Source: Zygaena filipendulae
Lineage: Eukaryota; Arthropoda; Insecta; Lepidoptera; Zygaenidae
Assembly: GCA_907165275.2 (NCBI GenBank)
Contig: OU015672.1
Coordinates: 1,222,501 to 1,286,500 of the forward strand
Reading direction: 5' to 3'
DNA: 64,000 nucleotides
Position numbers and translations under genes: made by a program. Positions within the stretch are counted from its first letter, which is position 1. Each line of letters starts with the position of its first letter. The notes beneath the pieces were generated by a model. It searched no databases and had not been told where the DNA came from. It saw only the letters and a program-made list of their open reading frames with translations. This document shows positions 5,746 through 62,642 of this stretch, one piece after another.

Positions 5746-8700
5746 GTGAGTATTATGAAATGAAATGAAGTTTATTTGTAACGACAATAAATTAAGTAGT
5801 ATGCATTTACAAAAAGTAGCACAATTACGTTGATAATATTTTTACATTACAAAAGCTTCGTTCGAAAACATAATATCACACCGAAGTGCACACGAGTCAC
5901 GACATCCCCGCTTCTTTTCCATCGAAGGCACGAGATCACACGGACTGTGTAGTAGTTTCAGAACGCAGCCTTATGTGCGTCATATATACGCTACGGTCTA
6001 CCGGAGATGTTATGGACCCCACACATTAACAGTCCGCTGGCGAATATCAGCCTGTTAATTAATCTAAATAGATCTCAGTCTCACAGTTTCCTTAAGGTTT
6101 TGGGTTGACGGCCAATGCGAACCTAGAGTGTGTGACTGCTTGCCGTCACAGGCCTGCGTTGACAGGTATCGGCCGGACAGTCCGTGATAGGACTGGAGAC
6201 TGCAGGCGGACTGTTAATGTGTGGGGCCCTTTATCTATGCAGCCCCGTATCCAAATCGACATTCTACAATTGTTAACACATAGAAAACTAAGTAAAAAAT
6301 ATTCATGTCACTAGGGCAGCCAATCAAAACTTAAGTTCTGCGTGACCACGTGTGAACGGAGTGTGTATAGTTTCAGAACGCAGCCTAGTACTTTTTTTAA
6401 TGGACTTAGAACGTAGTGCATTCGCCAATGTTGTGTTATTTGTGCAGCCTATAGTTAGTATTGTTTGTTGCGTGACGTTTATAAAGGAAATGGGCGATCA
6501 ACCCGGTGCTTGGGATTAAACCCAATAAAAGTCTGCAATTTAGGTTAGGTAAACTTGGGATTAAACCCGAAAATAGCAGGATTTTATCGGGTTTAATCCA
6601 AAGCACGAGGGTTGATTGCTCATCTATAGACTGATTTATAGTAGCCGGCAAACAAGTTGAGCCAAAAGTGACGTGGAAGGGGAAAGTTCGCGCGTATGCG
6701 ACTACTAACCGACCACTGTTAACCAATTTCGGCGCGCGTTTCGGCGAACTCCCCCGCGCAGCCTTCGATCCACCTAAGAGATCTAAAAATCATTTCTGCG
6801 CAGCTAAGGCCATGAGCTCAACTTGTTTGCCGGCTACTGCACCGTTTGCGTGTGCAGGCGAGCGGCGGCGCGGCGCGGCGGCCGGGCGGGCGGCGGCGCT
6901 GCGGCGCGCGCCCTCCGACTCGGACTGCTCGGCGGAGACCGCGTCGCTGTCCGCCGACAGCGGCGAGCGGCCCGCGCGCCCCCTGCCGCCGCCGCCGCGC
7001 TCCGCCAACACGCGCAGGTCGGCCTACAAGCATACTTATCTCCTACTATCCACATATTGTAGACTCATCCTGCAGGAAGTGCGGCGTAGAGGTGGAAAAT
7101 GGAAACAATGGCACATCTCATGTGCGAGTGCGATGCCTTGACTCGTCAACGTATGGGCCGGGCCTTCTGGAGACGGCTTACCCAGAATCAGAAAACCTCA
7201 GGCTCCTACCCCTCCACTGCACACTACCCTTCGCCGCCGAGGTCTTCAGGGAGTAGAGGGAGGATCACACCTCCGAAATTACCGCGGGTCAAACCGCGGA
7301 GAAAAGCTCTAGTACTATATTAAGATCGACGACTGGCAAGTGTTTACATCTCTTTGATGCCGCCCGTACTTCTCTGTTTTTTAATCGTTTAATTGACATC
7401 AAAGAACACGAAACTTAGCTACTTATAGGCGTGTGTGTAAATATAGAAGCGACTCAGCGTAAGCTGCTCGTGACCTAGGTCCCGAGCTGCGCTTGTTTTC
7501 CACCACTCCCTTCTGTACCTACTTAGTTATTATAATTAGTAAGCATGTAAAGTGTCAGTGGTCGGTGTGTACGGTTGCAGCCGGCGCCGCGGCAGCGAGT
7601 GGGAGGTGCTGGAGGGGCTGAAGGACGGGCAGCGGTACGACAAACGGCCGGAGGTGTTCAACGGGTACCTGCACAAGAAGCGCAAGTGGCCGCTCAAGGG
7701 CTGGCACAAGGTACTTAACATAGAATTAATAGGCACTAGCCGTGCCCCGCGGTTTCACCCGCGGTAAAATCGGAGTTCCCGCGGGAATTCCGGGATAAAA
7801 GTACCCTATGTGTTAATCTGATGTATAAGCTATAAAGTTTCATTTAAATCCATTCAGTAGTTTTTGCATGAAAGAGTAACAAACATCCATCCATCCATCC
7901 ATCCATCCATCCATACATCTGGGGGCACGGCAGTGCCCCCGCCAAGTCGAGCAACAAAAGCGGCACGGCCGTACTATCATTTTCTCGAAGCAATTCAGGC
8001 CATTTTCGACCCCCTATAACTTCGTTGTGGATAAAACTAGAAGCCTGAATTTTTAGTAAACAAGCAGGTATTGTATAAAGATGGTATAATTTAAATTTCA
8101 TTCGATTTGAACCAGTAGTTTAGGAATTATAACTAGTCAAAGTTTCTTAATTTTGTAGGTCACTCACTCACTCACTCACTCACTCACTCACTCACTCACT
8201 CACTGACCGATCATCAAAATTCTAAGGCACTTCTAGCAGACATAGAAGTTTGAAATTTAGAATACAATTAGTGTTTATTGTATAAATCAAGGAAAAATTA
8301 AAATATTTAGCAATTTCGGTCCAGTTTTCTAGATACACTAACTTCATAAATAACTTTGTAATCCCATATAAATGTATGGAATTACAAAGTTATATATGCA
8401 GTTATATGTACCAACTGCACAAATAACTTTGTAATCCCATATAAATATATGAGACTAGCTGTTCCCCGCGGTTTCACCCGCGTTAATTTCGGAGATCCCG
8501 CGGGAATTCAGAGATGCAAAGTAGTTAGTACCCTATATCCCTAGGTTTTCTTTACCCCTGACAACGTGCATGCAAAATTTCATGAGATTTCACCAGCGTT
8601 AATTTCGGAGATCCTTCGGGAATTCCAAGATAAAATTACCCTAATCTGAATGCTCCAACGATTTTCATGAAATTTTGTATACAGGGGATTTCGGGGGCCA

Positions 8701-11700
8701 TAAATCGATCTAGCTAGGATTCATTTCTGGAATTCCCGCGCGAACTCTGATATCAACGCGGGTGAATTAATTATTGCATACTACACGTTGTCAAGGGTAC
8801 AGGAAAGGTCATAGGGTAGTACTTTTATCTCAGAATACCCGCGGGATCTCCGAAATTAACGTGGGTTAAACCGCGGGGAACAGCTATTTAAGCCGTTGCC
8901 CAGATATTAATAAATAATAATAATAAGTGTAGCTATAGTTACCTACCTAGATATAAAGTGTAGATACATAGTTACCTAGACATAATTATGTTCAAAGGTA
9001 CAATGGTCAACGGAATGAAAAAGCAAGAATGGGGCATGTGTTTATATATATTATAAAGTTGTACCAAAATCTTTCAAGTTATTAAAGTAGACTAAATTGC
9101 TCAAAGGAGGAAGACCATTTACAAAAAGAAATGAGATCCCATCAAAAACAAACTTGTAAAAAAGTCCAAGTCTCGCAACTCACTTCTTCTACAGTAAAAA
9201 GTTGTGAGATCAATGTAATACCAAGTCGGTTAATTTATTCAGTGCCTACTTAAGGGTCCTTCTGTCTAAAGTTATCATGTTATAAGCTAATCTAATAACA
9301 TTTTATAGTGACCATATCAAATTTAAAAACCTTTTATGTTTTAAATAGATTGATTGGCTTGGCGATCACGTGAAAACACAATGTATCTCACAAGTAATAC
9401 ATATTATAATTAAATTAGATTGTTTAGAACCATAATTATGTATTACATGTGAGATATATTGTGTTTTCACGTGATCGCCAAGCCAATCAATCTATTTAAA
9501 ACATAAAAGGTTTTTAAATTTGATATGGTCACTATAAAATGTTATTAGATTAGCTTATAACATGATAACTTTAGACAGAAGGACCCTTAAGTAGGCACTG
9601 AATAAATTAACCGACTTGGTATTACATTGATCTCACAACTTTTTACTGTAGAAGAAGTGAGTTGCGAGACTTGGACTTTTTTACAAGTTTGTTTTTGATG
9701 GGATACATAATTACAAATTTATAATATTAGTAGGATTCGTATCTGGGCGACCGGGATTCTATCTTGTCTGTCTATTTGTTAGCTTTAACGTCTTAACTCT
9801 TTATCTGGGTGACAAAAAAGTAATTGGGTACTTTTTATTTTGTAATTCCTTTAAATATTACTATGCCTTTCCTTTCCTTTAAATATTACTATAATAAAGT
9901 TAAAATATGTATTTTAACTTTATTTTAGGTTAGGTTAAGTTTTAGTTTATTAACATTTAAAAGTTACATATATATTACATATAGATATATATACACGCCC
10001 AGACTTAAAATGGAATGATTAAAAAAAAAACTGTACCGTACGACAGAGAACTCCGTTCCAAAACGGTTGTAATGGGCATGTTGACTAATTTTTTTTTAGT
10101 CCGTCTTGTAAATTAATAAAAAATATTTGACACGTATGTTTTATTTTTTTACGTAATCAAAAAATAACGGCGATACATTGAGCTGAAATTTCGCGTGACG
10201 TCACTATTCGGACAGTTTGTATGGCAGTTTTATCGGTTAGTGACGTCACGACCCCCTCATCCTAAACTTTAACGCGCTTTATCTCTGTAAGTATATTTTA
10301 ATTTATTTGAAAAACCAAAAAAAAACGTGTCTATTGTTTTTTTTATTTTCTAACCGACGGACTAATTAGAATTTTGATTTTCAAAAGTAGTCAACGTCCC
10401 CTGTATCGTTCCAATACAGAATCGATGTTTGCATCTCGTCTAGCACTAGCAAAACGCAGTTGTTTTGACAGCTGTCATGCGTGTCGTTACTTGTCACTAA
10501 ATTGGAGCGACCGTTAACGGCTGTTGAGAGCACGACGCGCAAAGAAATCAATTCACTACCGTTCATCGCATGCGCATATCGAATTCGTTAGCTGTTCATA
10601 TCTGCTTATTGTGCCATTATTAAATCAAGATCAGAACCCTAATTTGCCCCGCCGGCTTGTGAACATCGAAGGTGGAGCTCATCGGAGGCGGTCGCAGTCC
10701 AAGGTATGTACGTGCATGGTATTTGCTACTGCCTATTCGATCGATTTATCATGTTATCGTTGGACTCCTGAGTGTGTCCCAGTGTAGTATTACGCCACAC
10801 TAGTTTGCTTACCTGCTAATGCTACGTCCCCATGCATGTGTTGGCAGCGTTACTTCGTGATCGACGGCGGCATCCTGGTGTACGCGCGCTCGCCGGCGGA
10901 CGTGGCGCGCGGCCGGCTGCACGGCTCGGTGGACGTGGGCCTGTCGGTGATCTCGGCGAAGGCGCGCCGCCGCCGCATCGACATCGACGCCGACGAGTTC
11001 ATCTACCACCTGCGCGCCAAGACGCCGGACGCGCTGCGCACCTGGCTCGCCGTGCTGCGGGCGCACAGGTGAGGCGCCGTCACCCCCACCCCCACCCACA
11101 CCCACCTGCGCGCCAAGACGCCGGACGCGCTGCGCACCTGGCTCGCCGTGCTGCGGGCGCACAGGTGAGGCGCCGTCACCCCCACCCCCACCCACACCCA
11201 CCTGCGCGCCAAGACGCCGGACGCGCTGCGCACCTGGCTCGCCGTGCTGCGGGCGCACAGGTGAGGCGCCGTCACCCCCACCCCCACCCACACCCACCTG
11301 CGCGCCAAGACGCCGGACGCGCTGCGCACCTGGCTCGCCGTGCTGCGGGCGCACAGGTGAGGCGCCGTCACCCCCACCCCCACCCACACCCACCTGCGCG
11401 CCAAGACGCCGGACGCGCTGCGCACCTGGCTCGCCGTGCTGCGGGCGCACAGGTGAGGCGCCGTCACCCCCACCCCCACCCACACCCACCTGCGCGCCAA
11501 GACGCCGGACGCGCTGCGCACCTGGCTCGCCGTGCTGCGGGCGCACAGGTGAGGCGCCGTCACCCCCACCCCCACCCACACCCACCTGCGCGCCAAGACG
11601 CCGGACGCGCTGCGCACCTGGCTCGCCGTGCTGCGGGCGCACAGGTGAGGCGCCGTCACCCCCACCCCCACCCACACCCACCTGCGCGCCAAGACGCCGG

Positions 11701-14700
11701 ACGCGCTGCGCACCTGGCTCGCCGTGCTGCGGGCGCACAGGTGAGGCGCCGTCACCCCCACCCCCACCCACACCCACCTGCGCGCCAAGACGCCGGACGC
11801 GCTGCGCACCTGGCTCGCCGTGCTGCGGGCGCACAGGTGAGGCGCCGTCACCCCCACCCCCACCCACACCCACCTGCGCGCCAAGACGCCGGACGCGCTG
11901 CGCACCTGGCTCGCCGTGCTGCGGGCGCACAGGTGAGGCGCCGTCACCCCCACCCCCACCCACACCCACCTGCGCGCCAAGACGCCGGACGCGCTGCGCA
12001 CCTGGCTCGCCGTGCTGCGGGCGCACAGGTGAGGCGCCGTCACCCCCACCCCCACCCACACCCACCTGCGCGCCAAGACGCCGGACGCGCTGCGCACCTG
12101 GCTCGCCGTGCTGCGGGCGCACAGGTGAGGCGCCGTCACCCCCACCCCCACCCACACCCACCTGCGCGCCAAGACGCCGGACGCGCTGCGCACCTGGCTC
12201 GCCGTGCTGCGGGCGCACAGGTGAGGCGCCTTCACCCCCACCCCCACCCACACCCACCTGCGCGCCAAGACGCCGGACGCGCTGCGCACCTGGCTCGCCG
12301 TGCTGCGGGCGCACAGGTGAGGCGCCGTCACCCCCACCCCCACCCACACCCACCTGCGCGCCAAGACGCCGGACGCGCTGCGCACCTGGCTCGCCGTGCT
12401 GCGGGCGCACAGGTGAGGCGCCGTCACCCCCACCCCCACCCACACCCACCTGCGCGCCAAGACGCCGGACGCGCTGCGCACCTGGCTCGCCGTGCTGCGG
12501 GCGCACAGGTGAGGCGCCGTCACCCCCACCCCCACCCACACCCACCTGCGCGCCAAGACGCCGGACGCGCTGCGCACCTGGCTCGCCGTGCTGCGGGCGC
12601 ACAGGTGAGTCGCCGTCACCCCCACCCACCACCCACCACCTACTGTCGGGGGGGGTCTGTCTGTCTCTATTTTTTTTTTATTTATTACTAGCTGTGCCCC
12701 GTGGTTACACCCGCGTTAATGTCGGAGATCCCGCGGGAATTCCGGGATAAAAAGTACCCTATGTCCTTCTCTGTACCCCTGACAACGTGCATGCCAAATT
12801 TCATCCAAATCCGTTCAACCGCTTTTGCGTTATTAAGTAACAAACATCCAAACATCTCAACATCCAAACATCCACACTTTCACATTTATAATATTAGTAG
12901 AACTAGCTGTGCCCCGCGGTTTCACTCGCGGTAAAATCGGAGTGCCCGCGGGAATTCCGGCATTAAAAGTCCTATGTCCTTCTAAAAGTTATGACAAGTA
13001 GATAAGTAAAAAATTACAAAAAATATAAAACTTTTTTTTAAATAAGCTTTTATTCAAATGCCCGTACAAACATAGTTATATACATTGCAAGTTAAATAAA
13101 AGCTTTAAAAAAATATTCACGCCTTAGCGGCGCCACCGATAGTCTTTAACTTTAAATACAGCACACGTTAGGTACACGTTGTCAAGCGTACAGAAAAGGA
13201 CTTATCCCGGAATTCCCGCGGGATTGTTATAGGGTTCTTTAAAAACTCCTTGGCTACAACTCTCTCTATACCACGTCACGCCGCCGCCGTATTAGAACCG
13301 CAATAATTTAATTTCCAGACTGTACCGACAACATTTGCTGACTTTCGGTGCGCGGGAGTCGACGCCGAAAATACACGCGCCGCTCGACGCGCTGCCCGCC
13401 ACGGACACGTCGTCACGTGAGTTGTCTACCATAGACCATACAGAATACACGAGCAATGAACATTCTAGAAGCATGCGTTTTACTCTGGTGTTAGGTGTAG
13501 CGTAAACCGTCCAAGAATTATGACTTTAAAACTTGTCAAAGAAATCCAAAGTAATTGAAAAACCTAGATGGATTGCCACGAAAGTTCAGCTAAAAAATAC
13601 AGTACCTATACATATATTTCTCTCAAAAAAATAAAGCGTTGATAAAAATTGTTCCATGCAAATTAAAACTATTTTAGTGTCGTAATTTTCGGACATCCTC
13701 ATCGAATTAATTGAGTTTAGAAATTAGCCTAGTCGGTTTTCTCCTAATAGAATGGGCATGTTGACTAATTTTTATTTTTTAGTCCGTCTTGTAGATTATT
13801 AAAAAATATTGAACACGTATTTTTTCTTTTTTTACGCAATCAAAAAATAACGGCGATATATTGAGTTGAAATTTCGCGTGACGTCACTATTCTGACAGTT
13901 TGTATGGCGGTTTTGCGGTTAGTGACGTCACGACCTCCTCATCCTAAACTTTAATGCGCTTTATCTCTGTATATTTTAATTTATTTGAAAAAGCAAAAAA
14001 TACGTGTCTATTGTTTTTTTATTTTCTAAATGACGGACTAATTAGAATTTTGATTTTCAAAGTAGTCAACATCCCTATTCTCTAGAAATTTGTTCTACAT
14101 TCCTACAGCGTTTATTGATACTGATTATACTTATTGCGCTGCCCTCTTAAGGTACATCGAGTTCGAGCATTGAAACCTTCTCGTCCTTGAGCTCAAACGA
14201 ATACTTCCACCGAAACCCGAATAATACAATCCACAGTCCCATTCCGCATCCTACTTTCACTCGAAACGCTGTTCTGTCAAGCAACATTGACCCTAATACC
14301 CTTGGTGATAACGAACAAAAAGAAAATAAATCTTCAAAAAAATGGGATGTTAATAATGCGGAAAGAAGCGAATTGTTACCCCTTACTTTTGATCCGTTTG
14401 ATGAAAAGAACATGTTTAAGATCCAATATGTCAACAGTTCTTGTTTTCTGAACAGTCACTCTTCGAACAATCGTAGTGATGTAGATGAGTGTGATTTATC
14501 AACTGATGATATCACTGACACTAGATGTACTAGTAATGAACAACACTTACTCAGCACGGAATTGAACTCTCTACGTAGTGCTGGTCGTTATTTCGATAGC
14601 ACGATATATTACGAATATTCACCTCGAACCTCTAAATTGAAAAAGTCATGGAAGCCATTTCAAAATTTACAATTAAATACAACCCCATCTAAGAAAAACT

Positions 14701-17700
14701 CGCCTATATTTAAAGAAAACAAAGCAAAACAGACTACCACTTTTTTCTTTTTCTCGCGCAAAAAATCACGCAACAAAAGTCCAGAGCAAATGCCTATGAA
14801 GCGAAGCAGAAAGTCTACGAATTTAACTAAATATAAGAATTTTTACGAGGAGCCTGTATTAACTAAGCCATTAAGCAATTGTATGCTCCTTAAAACATAT
14901 AAAGTCAAAGGCGTAGATAAGCAGACCAAAGACAATGTAAACAGCGAAGTGGAATGTGACATTTTACCTCAAATAGAAAAAGAAACCACTGAAGTACAAG
15001 TGGACTCAGGTAAATCGCTAAGAGATATTACAACTGCCTCCGAGTACGACAGGATCACAGAAAGACTCATCATATCGGTATTTGAGAGCCAAATTAACAA
15101 TAGAACCATGAAAGTGAACAGCGATGATGAAGTCAAATATTGCATCAAACAAATCGTAAAAGAATTGTATGATGTCAAATTTAACCAGTGCGACGTACAC
15201 CCGGTGAAAATATTGTTCCGCGGTCTGTTAGAGTATTGGTTGAAAAATACATCTATGGCGCAGTTCAAAGAAGCGATAAAACGTGTGCAATCTATAGACA
15301 GACAATCTAACAGGTATTTCACCAAAGACCAGAATCTGTCTAGTGTTTTAATTAGCGGTGTGACGAAAGCCACTCAGTTCCACGGATACAGCGAAATTGA
15401 GCAGATTAGTAAACAAAATGAAGGTGTGCATTTACAAAAGAAAGCGAACAAGCAAAGAAAGCAATCTTATAAAGCCGGCCATAAGGGTCAAGGAGGATAC
15501 ATCGACGACAGTTTCCAAAAAGAAAGACGCATACAAGAATTAGAAAGATTGCTTAAGAACACTGTCTATGTGTGCGAGACGGCGTGTGGCAAAAATAAAG
15601 AGAAAGACATAAAAATTACTGAACTACTTTTAGATAACCTTCAAAAACTATCTGGCACAATTAATGTTAATGCAACTGAAGATAATAGTTATTATGATAA
15701 CTCTAACTCCTCGACTGAACTACCTAAAATACAAGAAACTATCCAACATCTTATAAACGAAACCAAAATATCACCCGGTGTCGCAAAAGATTTCTTGAAC
15801 GCCTACTTGAACTTCCTACGCGCTGAAAGTAGTAAAAGTGAGGTGAATACCAGTTCGCAGTCCAGCGGTCCCTCTAAAGAATTAAAAACTGAAAATACAC
15901 CTATATTGTGTGACGTACAAGCCGAGTCAGTTCAGAGAAAAGTGTCGAAAAGTGTTACCACACTCCATAAAGTGTCACATTACACTAAATCAACGGACAG
16001 TAGAAGCGCTAAAGAAGAAAAGACGCACCCTGTTGATCCAGGACAACTGTATTTAAAAGATATTCTAGATAAAGTTACTACGGTGTCCTCGAAATCTGCC
16101 AAAAACGATTGCAGCGGTTGGGCGAATATTACATCTAAGAAAGTAAAAGTTGTTGGCGAGAGAGGAAATGCTCTGAATCGTGAGTTAGGAATAAAAGAAA
16201 AAGGATATGACCCGAAAAAATTCGTTCATGAAAATCATAATCAAAAAGCTGTTGTTATAAACCTTTCAAATTACGACTTAGAAAATATATCAATGCAAAA
16301 TGATCCAATAGCGAATGAAATGATGACTATAACAGTGAAACTTAAAGAGAAACATCGTACCAAGGATATTAAACAAAGAAAGCTAGATTTAAAAATGTCA
16401 AACGAGCCTTTGGTATCGACAATAGGAAATTCGGATTCTTGGATTCCAATTCGTAATAAATCTGACACTAAATTGGATTTTATTCCCACTTTTCCTGTAA
16501 AATCTGGTCATTTGAAGCCATATGTCAGTAGTAGCAGTGATGGTACGTCTAAAGCTTATTGCAATGTGTCACATGGAAGTGAAAAGTCTCTTAATTTAGG
16601 TGTAGATAGCAGCAACATCTTCAGTAATGGTAACTCTAAAGATAATAATGAAAGAAATGACGAAGCTCAATCTTGCTACGTCATGTCAGCATTTAAAAAA
16701 AATTTCACCACATCAAAAATGCACACGAAAAAGAAAGTGCGTGTAAAAGAATTCAACGGAATAGTTCTTGGACCGAGAGATCCGTCCCCGGAAACATCAC
16801 CGATCAGATTCTCCGATGAGTTTTGTATATTCGATAAAAATCCACCCAAGGTCATCGATGAGAAATTCATACTTCTGCTTTTGGAAAACTTGAATTTACT
16901 CTCCAAGAATATTCCGTATTTGCACAAAGATATCAACAATTTATTTTTAAAACTGCGAAAGAAATACGATAAAGTTATAAAAAATTGTGAACACATCAAA
17001 GGATTGAGTCTCTTAGGCAAAATATACAGTGATAGTTCACCTACTGCGGTCAACTGTAGTAACGACGAAGGCGTGCAATATGATCAAACAATGCTTAATG
17101 ATAATACCGATCATAAAGTCATAGCAAAAGAAACCACACTGGCCGATAACATGACAAATACTAGCTTAGATCAAATCAAAGATTTAATAGACAAATCACT
17201 GAGCGCCCGTTCTATTTACAAACCAATTGTGACAGAAGTGCAGACAGATGGCGCTGTAACCAATGTATTCGATAATCCCAAACCATCGACGTCAAGACAG
17301 AACGACCGTCTAGAAACTCGTATGATTCAAACTGGCTCTTCTGATTCAATGCAAAGCAGTTTAGAACAAATTATAGATATAAATAGAGGTGTTGAGATAC
17401 CTAATTGGTATACTGAAATATGCACTCGCGACTGTGCCATCAGCACTATAATAAAGTGTATATTGGAAAACAACGATAAACCGGCGTCTTTGAAAACCCT
17501 GAATGCTGGCGAAAGTGATAATTCAAAGAGAAGCAGAAGCACCCGCAAACCTTGGTCCAAGGTCCAGCAAGACGCAGGTGAATACCGCCTGTCGACCGAG
17601 GCGTTGAAAGTGTCTACCACATCGCAGACAGAGAGGAAAGTCATAAAGGTCATCAAGACTACACGCAAAGATGTAAAGAAAGAATTGGCGAAGAATAAAG

Positions 17701-20700
17701 ATTTCAAAGTGTACCAACTGTTCGCCAGTTCGAAATACGATCCGGTCAGGAGTAGCTCCATGACCCAGTCCAGTCTGGGTGCGCACGAGAGCGATGAACT
17801 CAAGACGTTGTACCGATGCGCCAGCGATCCCTCCTATTGTTCCGGTTTGACTGTTTTTCCTTATCCCTGTATCAGTATTACATTAATGGCCATGTGGACT
17901 AATTTTTATTTTTTAGTCCGTCTTGTAGATTATTAAAAAATATTGGACACGTATTTTTTCTTTATTTACGTAATCAAAAAATAACGGCGATACATTGAGT
18001 TGAAATTTCGCGTGACGTCACTATTCCGACAGTTTGTATGGCGGTTTTAGCGGTCAGTGACGTCACGACCCCCTCACCCTAAACTTTAATGCGCTTTATC
18101 TCTGTATATTTTAATTTATTTGAAAAAGCAAAAAATACGTGTCTATTGTTTTTTTTATTTTCTAACAGACGGACTAATTAGAATTTTGATTTTCAAAAGT
18201 AGTCCACATCCCCATTGCACAGCTGTAGTTTTGTTGAGTTTTTCATGTGATATCGGTCGCTCGGTACTTTGTGGTTTGGTTTTATTTATTTTATTTTGTT
18301 GAACAGTATTTTTTGTTGATTGTATATACATCAACCAACATAATTATTATTATGTAGTATATCATTAACCGACTTCCAAAAAGTAGGAGGTCTGCATTCG
18401 GGTGTATGTATGTTTTTTTTTAATCTAGTGTAGGTAATAGTATATCTGTATTGGTAGCAGTAACACAGTTATTTTGTGGTAGTTGCTTACTTACTGACGG
18501 ATGGGTTAATTTGAAAATAAATTACGCTTTAGTTTCCAGGAGAGTATGGAAAAATTAGACTCCTTGAAAATTATCGTTCTCGGGCTTCTAAAATTTAGGT
18601 AGGTAGTTAGTTTTGTAGAACAAAACTTTGCAGTGTTTATTCTATGTATTATTATGATAGATAGATAATAATCATCAAATCAGCGCTGGTTAAACTTAGA
18701 TTTTCATGTACTAAAATAATTGGACGCAGATAAGAAATAACATGTTAACCCACAAAATGAAGTTGTAGATTCAGTACGATTTATTGAGAGTTCGAGAACG
18801 TTTTTTAATTATGTTTTTTACCTTATTACATTTTTTAAATATGTAACTAAATATTGAACATAAAAAATTGACACAAAATGGCGCTATAATTTTAATACTT
18901 TAATTTAATCATAATTTCTCCAGTGTGGGTTAACACACTATTGCTTATCTAATATCTATATCCAATTAATCTAGTCTAAGCTAAAAGTAAGAAAACAACC
19001 AATCCAACAGTTACAGTCTAGTTCAATAGGTACAGTCGTAGACAATTTTTTTTTATTATTGCTTACATATTTCTGGTGTTAAATTTGTATGCCATTTTAG
19101 AAGTTATGGCACGCGATCGAAAACTGTTAAATATTATCCGGCCACGACTGTACCTACGTCCTACACCATTAAAGTTTTAAAATCTAGTATCACTCTGTGT
19201 TTTCTTTTCCCTGTTGCATTTGAGTGTTTTGGATTGCATTTTTGACATCTCACTTAGCTCTAGACCTTGCCTCTCTATAGTTTGCATCAATGAACTTTGA
19301 ATATCTACACTGAGTTAATATACAACGTGTTAATGAATTAACTGAAAACCTGATGCACCCCATTTAAAAAAATAAACAATAATATGATTAAAATATATTT
19401 TATGTCGAAAAAATTTATACTTTAAAAGTTATTCAACATTAGTTTGGAGGTGATCTATCTACGAAATTCCAAGCGCTACGCCCGCGCCTGCCGGTTCGAA
19501 TTTATTTGCTGCGGGCGGTGTACGCGCCTAACATTGTATTATAAATAACTTAGACCTGGGCTAGTAAAAATGAAAAATATAACCTATATTAAAATATAGT
19601 GCGATCGATTCGCTAGTTGATTCTGAGCAAACACTTTCTAGTTTTCAGTTAATTCATTAACACGTTGTATACATTATCTCCTGATAAAGACGCTTACACA
19701 CCCTCTCTACCTACAAAATATTTACCCCCACGACTAAACATTAAACAATATCCGAGAATTCACTGGAACATGTGCAAATTTCAAATTCACAAACACATGA
19801 TTATGGTGAGTTGTATCCGCGTGAATTTTGTAATTCCCTCGAGAATACCGGGATGTAAAGATGTAAAGTAGGTACCGTGTATACTGTATATTGAACACAA
19901 AACAATTATAACGCGTAAAACATTCGTCAACTTAACGAAACGTAATTAACGCTGTTTGGTTATTTATTTTATAGTTTGTGACGGTTTTCAAAATTTACAA
20001 TTTTGGGAATAATATATTGTGGCAAATATACTTGGAATGCCAGCTAAGGAAGTTTTGGGAAAGTTGGAGCATTTGTTCAAACTTACTTTGATAATCACTT
20101 ATTTTTCGAGTTAGCGCTGTTTAGGGCTCTAAAATAAACAATATTATATATATTAATATCCATAAGGTGTAAGGTGTTGTTAAATAAAATTCCAATAATA
20201 CGTGACGATATAATTAAAAAAAAAATAAAATATTTAAAACTGTGTATACTATTTTCTCTTCTATGTGATCGAGTCCGCACACAGCACAAGCCATATCATA
20301 TTATGTCATATGTCAGGAATACAATCCAAAGCACACGATCCACAAGCACGTTTCTCTCCCTTATAGGGTTGATAAGCCCCACGTCGCCCACTATACGCGG
20401 GCCCCAGGCCGGGTTCGTGTCGGGCACGCCGGGCGGCCGGCTCGCCGGCTGGATCATCGGTATGTCACTTATTAACTTAAGCATAACCTCACCCGAAATG
20501 GAGGGTAGTTACTAACACTTAGGGTAATATTCGTTATAACTGAAAGCACTGTCAGGTATGACATCTATTTAGTACTCTATATTTCTAAGCCGTTCCTTTA
20601 CACTGAGCTACTGTACTGTTTAAAACGGAACGCGGGCCAGTATATTATTGTCATCCATGTTCGACGACCCGATTGGCGCAATGGTCACCATGCCTGCCCG

Positions 20701-35800: not shown

Positions 35801-38800
35801 AGCCGATTCTCAGACCTACTGAATATGCATATAAAATTTCATGTGAATCGGTAAAGCCGTTTCGGAGGAGTATGGGAACGAACATTGTGACACGAGAATT
35901 TTATATATTACAAGTATCTCATTAGCGAACATAAGCCTTTAAACGTGAATGGTGCTTGCTACAGCGGCTGTGCGAGGAGCTGGAGTACTCGGCGCTGCTG
36001 GACGCGGCGGCGGCGTGCGCGGGCGCGGCGGAGCGCATGGCGCTGGTGGGCGCGTTCGCGGTGAGCGCGTACGCGGCGGCCGCGCACCGCGCCGCCTCCA
36101 AGCCCTTCAACCCGCTGCTCGCCGAGACGTACGAGTGCGTGCGCGACGACCGCCGCTTCCGGTTCGTCGCCGAGCAGGTGCGCCCCGCGACCACCGCCCC
36201 GCGACCCGCGCCCACACATCCACGTTGCACTTGAGATTTGTTTTAAACTCAGATCATAACTCAAGCGTATTCTCAAAAATTGCATTATTTGAATAGGCTA
36301 GTTTCCTAAATTTTTCTTTTTAGTCCGTTTTGTAGATTATAAAAAAATATTGGACACGTATTTTTTTTTTTTATGTAACCAAAAAATAACGGAGATATAT
36401 CAAGTCGAAATTTCACATGACGTCAATTGTTTAATTATGTGGTTGCCTTAATACATTGCTTAAGTATGTAACTAAATATTGAACATAAAAAATGTTGACA
36501 CAATTTGGATCTACTTATACTTTTTATTTGCGTTTATTAGATGACAATCAATGAAGCGACCGTGAACGACTCGCGCTGCAGTTCATCTCCTCTCGTTCCG
36601 TCGTTCGCGCGTCCGTGTTACCCCCCTCCCGCACCTCTCTCCCGCCCGACCAGTGATGCGCCCCAACAGTTTGTTCGCACGTTATAGCGAGCTGTGACAT
36701 CACGAGTCCCCCACCCTAAACTTTAATGCGCTTTATCTATGCATATTTCCATTATTTTAAAAAAGCAAAAAATACGTGTCTTTTATTTTTTTATTATCTA
36801 ACTGACGGACTAAATAGAATTTTGATTTTTTTACCCAGAAAACTAGCCTATTGTGTTATGGTTCCTAAGTTAGAATATAGTAAAATAGTAAAGAAGTAAA
36901 ATACATAAAAATATTATATATTTAACATATTTTGCTACACTATCGCATTAGTCCTAACTGTAAAGATAGTTGTAAGTATTTTTAAATAAATAAATAAATA
37001 AATAAATAAAATCTTAATACACGGTGAGTTTTTGTTTCGGGTCAGTATAGGACACTTTTATGAAGGAAGACTGTTGGCCGAAAGGTGTGGTCTATAGGCG
37101 ATTCAGGGGCAGGATACCGACAGCCACCACCAGAGCGACACAGTGTCAAAAATAGAATGTTTTTTATATTTGTTATATGTATGTTAATTTGTAAGGTATT
37201 TATCTATGGGCCCATGTTGCCTGATAACAAAACAATAAATAAATAAATAGGGAAATTCTTAACTATATGAGAGATAGAGAAAAACTCTCTTAGGAACCGT
37301 GATCTTAATTTTAGATAAAATAAAAATGGTAGGTATTTAAAAACAAAAAAAAACAAATTTAATTTATTTTATTTAGGACATTTGGAACAATTTATAAGAT
37401 AGAGTTGGATTAAGGCGAGTGGCAGATTTTAAGTTTTGTTTTGTTTCAGTCATCAATATCAATTAGATAGTAAAATGTATCTTTAATAAAATGATCAACT
37501 TCTAGCAACTTTAGAGCTATCGTCTCCATACAATTTTTGGTTTGTATAGATAGTAATATACAATCAAAATAACAAAAAAAAAATTTATTTTTTTTTTTCA
37601 AAAAATCCGATATCTCCAAATCTATTAAGATTAAAAAAAAATATTTTTTTTTATTTTATCTAAAATTAAGATCACGGTTCCTAAGAGAGTTTTTCTCTAT
37701 CTCTTATAATTAAGAATTTCCCCATAGTGACCCGAAAAAAAACTCACCGTGTAGAATGCGTTTTAAGTTCTTATCACTTGAAACGAGTCTTAAGTAGAAA
37801 TGATTGAACTCTGATTGGTTGAGTTACGTAACCAATGATGACACGACTTATGTGAACAAAGATCCAACAAACAAGGACCCAAGCAACACGTGGTTATATT
37901 ATGGTGTGCACTGTGCAGGTGTCGCACCACCCGCCGGTGTCGGCGTGCCACGCGGAGTCGCCGCGCTGGCGGCTGTGGCAGGAGGCGCGCATCCGCACCA
38001 AGTTCTGGGGCAAGTCCATGGAGTTCCAGCCGGCGGGCCGGGTGCACCTGCGGCTCGCCGGCTCGCACTACAGCTGGAACAAGGTGCGCGCCCGAGGGGA
38101 ACTCGGCCCATACAGACGAGTCTCATCAGTCATCACATCACACAGGTGGAATACGGTGCGGTGTGCGGGAGGCAAAGGAAACTAAGTCCGTACAGACAAG
38201 TCTCATGATGTGCGGAGCAAGGTGCGGTGTATGGGAGGCAAAGGAAACTAAGTCCATACAGACAAGTCTCATGATGTGCGGAACAAGGTGCGGTGTATGG
38301 GAGGCAAAGGAAACTAAGTCCGTACAGACAAGTCTAATAACGTGTGTCACACACTTTACACAGCACTAGGTGTGGTGTATGTGTCAGTGTGTCGCCAGCC
38401 GGCTACACCGTAGGAGGCAAAGGAAACTTAGCCCATACAGACAAGTCTAATGATAATATCAATGTACAGCTGGAACAAGGTGCGGTGTGTGTGTCTGTGT
38501 ATCGCTTCCCACTCACACCGGAGGGGGAATGAAAAGTAAATCAACTCTTATAATCAAGTCTCATGACGTATGTTACTACACATTATTTATACAGCTGGTA
38601 CAAGGTGAAATCCAGACGTTATTTTAATATTCGAATATTATAGTATTGCACCAAGGATTTTGCCCGTGCACGCAGGTGACGACGTGCGTCCACAACCTGT
38701 TCGGCGGGCAGCGCTGGGTGGACCAGTACGGGGACATGCTGATCGTGTGCCACGGCACCGAGCTCACCTGCAAGCTCAACTTCATCAAGGTGACAAAATG

Positions 38801-41800: not shown

Positions 41801-41964
41801 CTCGTCAGGCCCGACCAGCGCGCTCTGGAGGAGGGCGACGTGGAGGCGGCGGAGCGCCACAAGCACGCGCTGGAGCAGGCGCAGCGCGAGCGGCGCCGGG
41901 ACAACGCCGAGCACACGCCCGCCTGGTTCCGGTGAGCGCGCGCGCACGCACACACACACACACA

Positions 41965-42054
<90 letters not shown>

Positions 42055-56500: not shown

Positions 56501-59500
56501 CGTGAAAGCATATAACAAACAAATAACTTCAATTTCGCATTAATAATATGTAGCAAGGAGTAACAGATTTGCAAGCTTTGTGACGAGTGTGAAACTTATT
56601 GTCGAGTCAATGTACTTTACTAATTACCACTTTTTAAGTCAACAAAGAATTTGACTACAACATGTTGACTAAATTTTAATTTTTAGTCTATCTTGTAGAT
56701 TAAAAAAGTATTGTACAAGTATTTTTTATTTTTTTACGTGATCAAAAAATAACGGCGATACATTGTTTTAAAATTCCGTGTGACGTCACACCTCCCGCTC
56801 CTAGATTTTAATGTGTTTTATCTAAGTAAAAGCTATTTTCCGCGGTTATTCTGAGATAAAAGTACCTACTACCCTATTTTTTTCTCTCTTCATAACGTGT
56901 AGTAGCAAAGTTTAATACAGTTTCACCCATGTTAATTTCGGAGTTTCCGCGGGAATTCCGGGATAAAAGTACCCTATGTGTCCTGAACAAACAAAGAGAC
57001 TCACTTTCGTATGGCACTGGACCCTTGGTGCGCGAGTCCGACTCGCACTTGGCCGGTTTCATTTTGTCGCCCCCGCCCCCCAGGAAGCGTGCAAGGTGGC
57101 CAAAGAGCTGGACGTGGGCGAGCCGACGGTGATCCGCGGCGAGGAGCTGCGCGCGCGCGGCATGGGCGGGCTGTACGGCGTGGGGCGCGCGGCCGCCTGC
57201 CCGCCCGCCCTCGTCGCGCTGTCCTACCGCCCGCCCGCCGCCGGGGCCGGGGGGGCGCCGCCCGCCGCCGGCGTCGCCTGGGTCGGCAAGGGCATCGTGT
57301 ACGACACCGGCGGCCTGTCGCTCAAGACCAGGGTGAGTTACTACACTTGTACTAATCAATATATAAGATGTGCTAAAATTAGCTGCAAATATTTGCAGGG
57401 CTGAAAGTATACGTTATAACAAACAGGATAATCGAAAAAATAATATTATAAGTTCGGTAATTATTCAGAATATGAGGAAAGTAAATTCAGTGAAAAAACA
57501 TTATAATTGTAGCGTGATTACTATTGTTTCACATTATGTAGATAAGATCACATTTGGATTGGTACTATATAGTATAAAGATAGATATACTTAAGAAATTT
57601 GAATAAGCATTATTAGTTTAGTACCTAATTATTAGTACCCAACTTGTGTATCAACACCATCTTACTTTTTTGTTTTGGTTAAATAAATAAAAAAAAAAAT
57701 TACATTCACAAGCTCACTTTTACGTATATAAGGCACGCGCCTCGCACACTTTTTTTTTTATTTTGAAAAACTAAACAAAATTGTCCTTTTTATTTAATGA
57801 ATATATTTATAACGGTGTATACTTTCAATCCTGTAAATATTTGCAGCTAGTTTTACCACACCTTGTACAGGGTGTAAAAAGACCGGTGACACAACCGCTA
57901 GGAATCCATATAACATAGTAATTGAAGTTATTCTGCAGTAAAAATATTGTTGGGAATCGTAATTTTATTTTTAGATTAAAAAAAAATTATTATTGCATGC
58001 AATGTACTCGCAAATCTACACCACAGAATAGCTACCAAATTACTTAAGAAAAAATATTGTTAATGTGATAAACTACAAAAATATTCAATAAGTAGTACTT
58101 ACGAAACTTTGAGGCTTAATTTCTTGAAAATTGTTGATTTCCCAGCTGAATTTCTACGTCTAAAATGTTCGTACTAAAATGGTGTAGAGAATTTCTGACA
58201 GCCTGTATATGAAACCTTCAAAAAGTGTTTCTTCAACTGAACGACGTGTGTGTGTCTGTGTGCGTGCGCCAGTCGTCGATGGTGGGCATGAAGGGCGACT
58301 GCGCGGGCGCGGCGGCGGTGCTGGGCGCGTTCGCGGCGGCGGTGCGCGCGCGGCCCACCGTGCCGCTGCACGCCGTGCTGTGCCTCGCCGAGAACTCGGT
58401 GGGGCCCCACGCCACCAGGTCGGGCCCCCACACACACACCACCACCCACCACCACCCCCTGCCGCCCACCACCATGGGTTATGCTATATGTTCGTGCGCA
58501 ACATATCTTGCGCGCGTTGCTATGGCAACTTGACGTTGTTAATTGTTATCTAAACTAACCGCCGCACTCAGTTAGTAAAGTATAGATTTTTAAAACAAAA
58601 CTGCCGCGATCAGACAAGTTTAAAAAATTAATGTTAATTGGTATCTAACTAATTAAGTTACAATGCCAATTAACATTAATTTACTGAACGTCTCTGATTG
58701 CGGCAGTTTTGTTTTAATAGTACATTGTTATCCTAGGGGTGAAAGTAACTTATTTAGTCCCGAGTAAGGAAAGTCAAAATAAAAATAGGAATTAGCTAAA
58801 GAAAAAATGAGTGAAGATCGGATAGTCGCTTGACACTTTCCCACCTATTTCTTTTTCTTTGGCCGGCTGGCTATTCAGCCAGTATTTTTTATTTACATTG
58901 TGGCGACCTAAAAAAAATATTATTTTTAATTATTAAGTATTAATTAAAGAAAATAAAAAAATATAAATAGGAATTAGCTTAAGAAAAAGTGAGTGAATTT
59001 TATTTTAATTAATACCTACTTAAACTTTACGTTATTTCAATTTTACATCGCGCTGGCTGTATAGAAAGTTGAGACATGGTTCAATAGAAATGTGAAAATA
59101 GACCTAGTTTTTTTTTAATAATTTGACAGTTGTCAGTTGAAAGCGATTCTCCCTAGGGCTGAAAAGGGTTACTTTCAACCCGCTTCTCAGGCAACTTCAG
59201 ACCTACTTTCCGAGTATGAGTAATGAAAAATCTATACTTAACTATGTAATCATTAAAGTCGACTCTGAGTGCGGCGGTGAGATTATAAAGAGCAAAATTT
59301 TGTGAGTTTGTAGGTTTGTGTCGTTGTAGAGGGTAATCTCTGAATCTACTGAACCGATTTTGAAAAATCTTTCACTTATAGAAAGCTAGAGTGATCCTAA
59401 GTGATATAGGGTACTTTTTATCCCGGTATTCCCGCGGGAACTCCAGAATTTGTGTGTTTGTGAGATTGTAGGGGGTAATCTCTGAATCCACTGAACCGAT

Positions 59501-62500
59501 TTTAAAAATTCTTTCTCTTATAAGAAGCTACAGTGATCCTGAGTGACTGAGGTATTTTTTTTCTCAGAATTCCCGCGGGAACTCCGGAATTACCGCGGGT
59601 GAGACCGGGTCAGCTAGTTTACAATAAGCAGAGATAACAAAATAATAAAGGAGTAAACTCCAGTCGTGCGTCGAAGCAAACACTCACACTTTTTTATAAT
59701 AATTAACTTTTATTTTTCCTCACAGACCGGACGATATCCACCAGCTGTATTCGGGGCGTTCCGTTGAGATCAACAATACGGATGCTGAAGGTAAACGACG
59801 TAAAAATTTCCTTACTAGTCTTAATACACTGACTATTTGCCGCAGTCTCGACCGCATAAGCTGGACTCTCTCGAGAACTCCAAAAATTATCCTCTCTGGT
59901 TGGATGAAGCAAGACACGTCGTGATAAAAATTTCGTCGAAATCGGTTTAGTAGATTAGCGTGGAAAAACATAGTGACACGAGATTATTATGTATTAAGGA
60001 TAGTAACACACAACGTAAATATGACGATCGTGTTCCCGAAGCGGTTATTATTGAATAGGCATGTTGACTAATTTTTATTTTTTAGTCCGTCTTGTAGATT
60101 ATTAAAAAATATTGGACACGTATTTTTTCTTTTTTTACGTAATCAAAAAATAACGGCGATATATTGAGTTGAAATTTCGCGTGACGTCACTATTCTGACA
60201 GTTTGTATGGCGGTTAGTGACGTCACGACCCCCTCACCCTAAACTTTAATTTTCTAACTGACGGACGGACTAATTAAAATTTTGATTTTCAAAAGTAGTC
60301 CACATCCATTGAACTGAAAAACCTTTATTAGAAACAAAAATTACAATATGCATATAAACAACTATACAATAACAAGTAGGTATTGAGGGTTCGCCTCTCA
60401 ACCGTCAGGCAGACGTCTAATTAGTGCTGTAATTTTAATTAGACACAATTTTTTTTATTTTATACCTATAATTATTTTAATGTAATTTCTTCATAACATT
60501 TTGTTATATTAATATCTACTAATATTATAAATGCGAAAGTAACTCCTGTCTATTCATGAAATTTTGCACACACGTTGTCAGGGATAGAGAGAAGGCATAG
60601 CGTACTTTATATCTCAAAGATAAAGTCCTATCCATAATTATAATTTGAATTTCCTACTGTTATTATTTGCACTGTTTATGTACACAATTGAAAGCTCGAT
60701 CGTAGTCTGATTTAAATAACACTTCAGTTTTCTTTTAATTAATACTGTCTTCTGTTTTGTGTTCTAAATAAACTAAATACATATATTATTTAATAAATGT
60801 GTGTCTGTGTGCGTGCAGGTCGGCTGGTGCTGAGCGACGGCGTGGTGTACGCGTGGCGCGACCTCAAGGCGGACACCATCGTCGACGTGGCCACGCTCAC
60901 TGGCGCCCAGGTACCTCACCACACCTCACCTCACCACACCTCACTTTACCTCACCACACCTCACCAAACCTCACTTTACCTCACCACACCTCACCAAACC
61001 TCACTTTACCTCACCAAACTTCACTTTACCTCATTACACCTCATCTTACCTTACCTCACCTCACTAAACCTTACCTCACCACACCTCATCTCACCTCACC
61101 ACACCTCACCTCACCTCACCTCACCTCACCTTGTCTCATCTCACCTCATCTACTGCATTATAAGCTTCAATAATCCCAGTAGAGCGGGCGTATTTTTTGA
61201 AAAATGAAATGAAACACTGTTTGCCGTCAAATTGGTACATTTTCAGTTGTATAAGCAGTGTTTTGCGGCGAGGATACACAGCGGATTCGGATAGGCTAAA
61301 TGGAACATTTTCGTTGAACGACGCTTAATGATGCGTTTTAAAATGAATATGTAGCACATTTTGGGGAGTTTACACGATAGTTCCGGGAGAAACATGGATA
61401 AATGGCGCATTCCACTCAATGACCAGCAGCTGACCCACACACGTTCCATTTTGAGGTCCACAAGGTCCATTTTGAGCGTGGAGACATACCACACAAATGG
61501 CAAAATATTATTATGTTTCTTGTTTAGTTTTGTTTCTTTATTCTTTATTTTGCCATCCGTTAAATTATTTTCATAAATCTTTCTTTTCTTTTCTGTTCGT
61601 AACGGCTACTAATGTGTGCGTGCGCGGGTGTGTGTCAGGGCACGGCGACGGGCAAGTACCACGCGGGCGTGCTGTCGAACAGCGCGGCGCTGGAGGCGCG
61701 CTGCGTGGCGGCGGGGCTGCGCGCCGGCGAGCTGGCGCACGCGCTGCCCTTCGCGCCGGAGCTGCACGCCGCCGAGTTCACCAGCGCGCTCGCTGACATG
61801 AAGAACAGCGTCTCGGTGAGGCCGCTCACACTCTTTTGGTCTTTGTCTTAGGGGGTTCGGGGGGGGGGGGGGTCGGAAATATCACAGGGAGGGGACGGGG
61901 GGGGGGCACACACGATTTCTAAACCGAACAGCGGCGCGTGGCCTTGACTCACTGTTGGCAGGCGACGATTTCAAATATTTAATCAGATCGTACCTGTATT
62001 TAAAGATAATATTCTGAAAATTTCAATGCTTTATAATAAAAAATACACACGTGATTTTGGGTATGGGGGGGGGGGGAGTCTTGAACCTCATCACATATCA
62101 CCAAGGGGAGCCGGGAGGGGGTTAAAATTAGCTAAAAAATACATTAATGGACGGCCCCTTATGGACTCCACACTAGCTGGTTTCACCTGCATTAATTTCA
62201 GAGTTCACGCGGGAATCGGGATAAAAAGTACCCCATGTCCTGTGCGCTCAGTTACAATTGAAACTCTTGAGCTCACAACAATAAGAAAACTTTTGTTGTT
62301 TAAATGATTACGGCCACTCTGAATGTGCAGTGTGTACCACTACTACTACTTTTGATGTTTATTGTAAACTGATCAGTTTATTAAGTGTTTATTATTTTTT
62401 TCGTCTGTCTGTCCGCGCATGCCCAGGACCGCAACAACGCGCAGCCGTCGTGCGCGGGGCTGTTCATCCTGTCGCACCTCGGGTTCGACTTCCCCGGCCA

Positions 62501-62611
62501 GTGGCTGCACATCGACATGGCGGCGCCCGCGCACTCGGTACGCACGCGCACGCACACACACACAGACACAAACACACACAGACACATACACACACACACA
62601 CACAGACACAA

Positions 62612-62642
<31 letters not shown>

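Follow-up and report, generated by a model that had tools for sequence, protein, structure and literature searches.

Tandem reduplication of an exon end and its 5' splice site in an ORP gene of Zygaena filipendulae

Introduction

Which of many near-identical 5' splice sites (donors) is used when the end of an exon is repeated at the start of its own intron, and why should such an array arise and persist in a gene? This question is raised by a stretch of 64,000 nucleotides (nt) from the lepidopteran Zygaena filipendulae (GenBank assembly GCA_907165275.2, contig OU015672.1, positions 1,222,501 to 1,286,500; hereafter the window, whose own numbering is used below), where an ORP gene carries seventeen tandem copies of the end of its second PH-domain exon, each with its donor and the beginning of the intron. 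A first-pass annotation had described the array and suggested that competition among the donors may tune ORP output and that copy number may be polymorphic. In this study, we compared the array with the rest of the window, with the 366-Mb assembly and with homologues from other Lepidoptera. It appears most probable (about 0.7) that the array is a young minisatellite, in which a microhomology duplication over the 3' boundary of a coding segment was tolerated and then expanded.

Structure of the array

Tandem Repeats Finder (TRF) returned 37 rows for the window, and the highest score among them (3239) was that of a 96-bp unit present in 17.0 copies with 99% matches (Table 1). Each unit was made up of the end of the second PH-domain exon, CAG/GTGAGG and about 33-38 nt of intron; the array is thus a minisatellite whose unit spans an exon-intron boundary. 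The sequence CAGGTGAG occurred 17 times on the plus strand of the window, every time inside the array and in 96-bp steps from 11066 to 12602, which places AGGT within the duplicated segment. Both the number of copies and the composition of exon, donor and intron in each unit had been claimed in the first-pass annotation, and they were confirmed by the TRF result and by unit-by-unit reading. Units 1-12 and 14-16 were all identical, so that 15 of the 17 units equalled unit 1 (unit 1 counted) and three distinct units were present. Unit 13 (12158) differed by a single G>T change, and unit 17 (12542) by seven changes, one at donor position +6 (GTGAGT instead of GTGAGG) and six in its last 10 bases. 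GTGAGT, the donor of unit 17, is probably the ancestral form.

The short CCACC homology proposed for both unit edges was also found: CCACCT marks the unit's exon edge and recurs in the intron just past unit 17. The array itself was confirmed; its start had been placed at 11011 rather than at the 11006 of TRF. The choice between the two, and between a split of 58+38 or 63+33 nt, is arbitrary because CCACC is common to both unit edges. The GC content of the unit was 77%, compared with 33-61% for 2-kb windows of the region, and 16 of the 18 minus-strand G-quadruplex motifs of the window fell in the array, one in each of units 1-16. Across the assembly the 96-bp unit matched at the array only (17 matches), and no haplotig or paralogue copy of the array was found there.

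Table 1. Coordinates of the array and of related features in the window
Feature	Position	Strand	Basis or remark
First PH-domain exon; donor GTACTT at 7711	7579..7710	+	tblastn with ORP homologues; 5' end approximate
Second PH-domain exon, 221 nt, ends in phase 2	10848..11068	+	Homologues; PH_8 just under cut-off
Array of 17 units, each exon end, donor and intron start	11006..12636	+	TRF; position-by-position comparison
Donor 1, CAG/GTGAGG, gives the junction of homologues	11069..11074	+	Homologue junction; U1 duplex -11.6 kcal/mol
In-frame TGA, met if donor 1 is unused (read-through AGG TGA)	11070..11072	+	Sequence reading
G-quadruplex motif GGGTGTGGGTGGGGGTGGGGG	11083..12543	-	One each in units 1-16
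Donor 17, CAG/GTGAGT, adjoins unduplicated intron	12605..12610	+	Unit comparison; U1 pairing; folding
Rest of intron, acceptor TTTCCAG, outside the array	12637..13318	+	Sequence reading
Exon after the array intron	13319..13416	+	Homologue alignment
Large exon, probably alternative first exon of a PH-less isoform	14152..17849	+	Open frame 14151-17933; exact ends inferred
ORD exon ending TACAGCTGGAACAAG, donor GTGCGC; V codon at 37919 follows acceptor	37919..38083	+	Homologue alignment
Exon end and intron of degraded exon end + donor units	38069..38675	+	Units at 38069 (exon itself), 38141, 38214, 38280, 38465, 38590

Donors of the array

According to the first-pass annotation, only the first donor preserves the ORP frame, and the homologues agreed. 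The junction HR.YRQ, which is the product of donor 1, was present in 103 of the 120 homologues listed (of 4300 matches). Donor 1 alone would give this junction, and we infer that it is used in the host. The in-frame TGA described behind it was likewise present where it had been placed. Use of donor k would lengthen the exon to 221 + 96(k-1) nt (1757 nt at most) and shorten the intron from 2250 to as little as 714 nt. Each downstream choice meets the TGA and may yield the PH-only truncated protein or the decay substrate foreseen in the first-pass annotation. That account was incomplete, as a PH-less isoform probably starts past the array.

The seventeen donors do stand in a row, but they are not fully equivalent as had been supposed. 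In pairing with U1, donor 1 and the donor of unit 13 reached -11.6 kcal/mol and donor 17 reached -12.2 kcal/mol, whereas the 11 other scored donors of the ORP gene were weaker (-4.8 to -8.8 kcal/mol). Local folding predicted that the donor 9-mer is unpaired with a probability of 1.8e-07 to 3.2e-07 for donors 1-16 and of 2.9e-05 for donor 17. Thus, the last donor is predicted to be about 100 times more accessible than the others, whose predicted burial is due to GC content. The fold of two units was no more stable than that of shuffled sequences (z -0.64). On substrates with duplicated donors, the intron-proximal donor is preferred. That preference predicts the use of donor 17, whereas exon definition predicts the use of donor 1.

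Similar arrays in the ORP gene and elsewhere in the genome

A second and older array was found in the same gene. The end of the ORD exon, TACAGCTGGAACAAG/GTGCGC at 38083, recurs in its own intron, where a local search found it at 38465 with a score of 40; none of 60 shuffles scored above 23. Most of the intron (38084-38675) is made up of decayed units, and six degraded copies are present when the exon itself is counted. When boundaries of the window were tested in this way, four of 23 donors and one of 13 acceptors beat their own shuffles, and two and none of these, respectively, read as exon copies. The other two donors owed their scores to a 13-nt match past the next exon (28813) and to an intronic simple repeat (60911), and the sole acceptor was a GTGC repeat (40365). 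In the ORP and aminopeptidase genes, simple C/A-rich or CA repeats also start a few bases from some donors (60911-61148, 58419-58474, 41932-42234 and 62538-62622).

We then considered the 45 top-scoring arrays with a period of at least 20 in a 304-kb sample that comprised the window and 24 ten-kb stretches of C23. The motif AGGTRNG was present on the given strand in two of them, and this ORP gene contains both. Another exon-end array of the sample lacked the motif and was found by reading. It lies in a Borealin gene (PF10512, 3.6e-14; C23:956521), where nine downstream 30-bp units resemble the exon end with its donor (8-12 mismatches in 32) and the GT is kept in six of the nine; the degraded units occupy L030 6521-6900 (G000:C23:950001-960000). 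A 46-bp unit repeated 16 times (96% alike) was seen just upstream of an open frame at L013 5648-6386 (G000:C23:100001-110000), and no exon-end array was read there.

Two pattern searches covered the whole genome, each with the reversed pattern as control. The first demanded three AGGTRAG at gaps of 75-105, and its first 100 matches listed (C1-C5) represented seven loci, of which five had their flanks read. Among these listed matches, five of the seven loci had an exon-like open frame with a donor in the unit: an exon of a reduced folate carrier (PF01770, 1.4e-10) with a 108-bp unit and about 21 donors; a further locus, read without its 5' edge, that shares this 108-bp unit and has at least seven donors; a GCFC-like exon (PF07842, 0.11, below the cut-off) with a 91-bp unit and about 46 donors; an open frame on C5 with a 42-bp unit and at least 13 donors; and an open frame on C1, zinc-finger-like in appearance, with a 56-bp unit and 14 donors. 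The remaining two loci looked like simple repeats; C3:335288 was a simple AAGGT repeat by its match, and C4:1589476 was also among the matches. The second search, for three AGGTGAGT at gaps of 40-70 (a unit of 48-78 bp), gave 24+24 matches compared with 0+1 in the control. These fell in six loci, namely C1 (again), C5:11789168 (63 bp), C13:11776336, C17:1573657, C28 and C29, with the flank read for C1 alone. At C5:11789168-11789994, on the minus strand, the 63-bp units (about 14 copies) each hold a possible acceptor (…GTGCGCAG), 10 nt and a donor GTGAGTAC, and the repeat might be a chain of micro-exons.

In the class of arrays proposed here, the first copy is an exon end and the units keep a donor; the 5' boundary of the array was seen to lie in an open frame for the ORP second PH exon and ORD exon and for the loci on C5 and C1 and those of Borealin, the folate carrier and the GCFC-like exon. 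Coding nature was backed by homology for ORP, Borealin and the folate carrier only, and by the open frame alone for C5 and C1. The intron part of the units in other arrays was as short as 3 nt, and no G-quadruplex motif was present in the other four units analyzed. Finally, an array was found over a stop codon: an ORP/OSBP-family paralogue on C19 has its last coding segment, ...RYWECKQRQDWADCPDIF followed by the stop, in three tandem copies (126 bp x 3.2, 99%; L035 reverse strand 7358-7754, G000:C19:6951001-6960000).

Exon repeats in other Lepidoptera

A word count for internal repeats of at least eight residues detected them in four of the 120 listed ORP homologues. In P0052 (Plutella), the segment ...RMALVAAF...RFLAEQ occurred four times, whereas a second Plutella model (P0034) contains a single copy. 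P0054 (Helicoverpa armigera) carried the end of this exon twice, one exon was repeated twice in P0055 (Papilio machaon), and P0017 (isoform X4 of H. armigera) had three exon copies joined by VGLTSNCIHHEQ, a linker that looks like translated intron starting at the donor. The predicted ORP protein of Zerene cesonia (P0051) resumes exactly at HLRAK, which is the 5' edge of the array unit; a similar duplication may be present in that gene.

Host gene and other features of the window

Judged from its homologues, the host is an intact ORP3/6-like gene with a PH domain and an Oxysterol_BP domain. Lepidopteran ORP3/6 proteins were its best named homologues among the 120 listed, and tblastn with ORP homologues placed its exons in order on the plus strand from about 6.9 to about 42.66 kb. 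One exon matched Oxysterol_BP in Pfam (1e-29), and the second PH exon gave PH_8 with E=8.9e-07 and 29.6 bits, just under the cut-off of 30. This exon, which is preceded by an intron of about 3.1 kb, was 84-86% identical to the ORPs P0001, P0002 and P0009. An exon at 10.5-10.7 kb was ruled out as the first PH exon, for which homologues pointed to 7.58 kb. No other close orthologue was present in the assembly, where weaker relatives lay on C19, C2 and C17. In an ORP tree, the gene sat on a long branch that gave no firm placement of the species.

At columns conserved in other Lepidoptera, the host differed at two of 17 in the unit part of the second PH exon vs none of 46 in the rest of the exon (p=0.07). 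The two own-lineage changes, F63L and K71R of the partial ORP, both lie in the array part (11006-11068). This pattern is no more than suggestive of biased conversion that would write array changes into the protein.

The large exon downstream of the array is very long (about 1230 codons) and partly conserved with a PH-less Colias isoform: its part at 16821-17849 was 43% identical to the N-terminus of Colias isoform X1 (E=3e-48), which lacks the PH domain and the HR.YRQ junction. A PH-less ORP isoform is therefore likely to start downstream of the array, and only PH-containing isoforms would depend on the array. Elsewhere in the window, a long inverted repeat of foldback or miniature inverted-repeat transposable element (MITE) type in appearance was seen by eye at 9190-9700.

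Discussion

The features of the array are consistent with a simple course of events. First, the presence of CCACCT at the exon edge and again past unit 17 makes a duplication between short homologies likely, and a tandem duplication between these two sites would have copied the exon end, the donor and the intron start. Second, slippage or unequal exchange would have raised the number to 17 near-identical copies, perhaps aided by the G-quadruplex motif, whose absence from the other four units analyzed indicates that it can help and is not required. Third, the array could persist with the mRNA unchanged, since use of the first donor turns all that follows it into intron. A working gene would require the spliceosome to settle, in most transcripts, on the first of many donors of equal strength, either by exon definition on the 221-nt exon or by first-come-first-served co-transcriptional recognition; some leakage into PH-only, stop-carrying transcripts would be likely. 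Copies would be silent after a donor or a stop codon alike; tolerance appears to be the shared rule, and duplications of donors or stops at 3' coding boundaries would be tolerated and recurrent in this genome and in other Lepidoptera. The best hint in this direction is the arrayed stop codon on C19, where no splicing is involved and which favors tolerance of the boundary over a splicing-specific device. Given arrays at another exon end of the ORP gene, elsewhere in the genome and in other Lepidoptera, a tolerated mutational habit should be considered before a gene-specific device.

Several results weigh against this interpretation. The asymmetry between donors and acceptors in the window (two of 23 vs none of 13) was not significant (p=0.53), and the Borealin units matched weakly, with a score of 28 where the best of 500 shuffles reached 26. 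The search for three AGGTRAG yielded 294+195 matches compared with 612+389 in the reversed control, i.e. no excess, with a few arrays supplying most matches of pattern and control alike. The OSBP-type paralogue L036 showed no donor repeat, the repeats in ORP homologues are known from gene predictions at the protein level only, and none of 120 homologues of the neighboring aminopeptidase had internal repeats.

The main alternative is that the array is a splicing rheostat, in which 17 donors compete, the share of donor 1 drops with copy number, and the array is kept to set the level of PH-containing ORP. Its appeal lies in the strength of the donors, all of which outdid the other scored ORP donors in U1 pairing, with the last one the strongest and predicted to be the most accessible; moreover, every downstream choice meets TGA, and P0017 of Helicoverpa reads as if the donor of the third exon copy were used. 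However, similar arrays are present in unrelated genes and over a stop codon, where no splicing role is needed, and the near-identity of the units suggests youth and not long selection. Thus, it is possible that donor competition tunes ORP output, but a rheostat kept by selection seems unlikely to us, and more of the findings are explained if reduplication of 3' coding boundaries is recurrent and tolerated.

Other explanations are less probable. There is little reason to suspect an artefact of assembly, with fewer copies in the true allele: such arrays are hard to assemble, and 16 of the 17 units are within one base of each other, but 1.6 kb is short for long reads, the variant unit and the distinct terminal unit are each placed once, and the other arrays of the genome differ in length and degree of decay. 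Slightly more doubtful still is recursive splicing, with each CAG/GTGAGG acting as an acceptor-donor ratchet, so that the array would be removed stepwise and the mRNA left unchanged. AG and GT are directly apposed in all units, as in the intron-gain models built on AGGT (PMC4974935) and as at the ratchet points of Drosophila, where acceptor and donor are juxtaposed (PMC8605326). However, by eye, GCCGTGCTGCGGGCGCA before each CAG and GCCGTGCTGCGGGCGCACAG before each GT form no pyrimidine tract, which sets the units apart from the Drosophila sites, and the C-rich run about 60-90 nt upstream of CAG is almost free of T. Least probable of all is a functional C-rich or structured RNA element, such as one bound by C-binding proteins, in which the donors would be passengers. 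Although units 1-16 contain CCCCCACCCCCACCCACACCC, the two-unit fold is no better than that of shuffles and arrays elsewhere have other intron parts, down to 3 nt.

A full-text literature search, outside which subscription papers mostly fall, revealed no description of high-copy arrays of complete donors. Judging by its title, work by Zhuo et al. from 2007 reportedly traced human introns to tandem arrays and linked them to alternatively spliced introns. Several described systems come close. In human duplicated genes, variable internal tandem repeats at exon-intron boundaries have units of about 30 bp and four copies on average, with 27 intron modifications (PMC2812944). They too are minisatellites that overlap the boundary and may change splicing; but they belong to segmental duplications, whereas the arrays reported here have units of 42-108 bp, up to about 46 copies and a complete donor in each, in host genes that seem to be single-copy or not to be related to one another. 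When introns are gained through tandem duplication of exon segments with AGGT (Rogers 1989; Hellsten 2011; potato RdRp, PMC4974935), AG/GT is likewise present in each tandem copy and a downstream copy turns into intron. However, the new intron is bounded by repeat copies there, whereas here an existing intron is lengthened at its 5' end: the array ends at 12636 and the acceptor lies at 13318, with 682 nt of non-array sequence between them. Finally, two natural 5' splice sites compete in DOK7 (PMC5585400), which likewise offers several donors per acceptor and a choice between intron-proximal and intron-distal sites, but two sites there compare with 17 near-identical ones here.

A broader proposal, which we put forward tentatively, is that donor-seeded reduplication is a general mode of intron growth in Lepidoptera, whose young arrays decay into intron of ordinary appearance (the ORP intron at 38.1 kb would be a fossil of this kind) and in which the spliceosome commits to the first donor, against the intron-proximal preference.

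Most work on how one of several identical donors is chosen has relied on constructed substrates with few sites. Here, natural genes that are likely needed hold some 14 to 46 near-identical donors ahead of a single acceptor, and one gene contains both an old and a young version of such an array. Should the first donor be used, recognition would be fixed by order or by exon length; if not, copy number would set the output. The opposed predictions of exon definition and intron-proximal preference make the locus a useful test, and the recurrence of such arrays offers a testable source of intron length.

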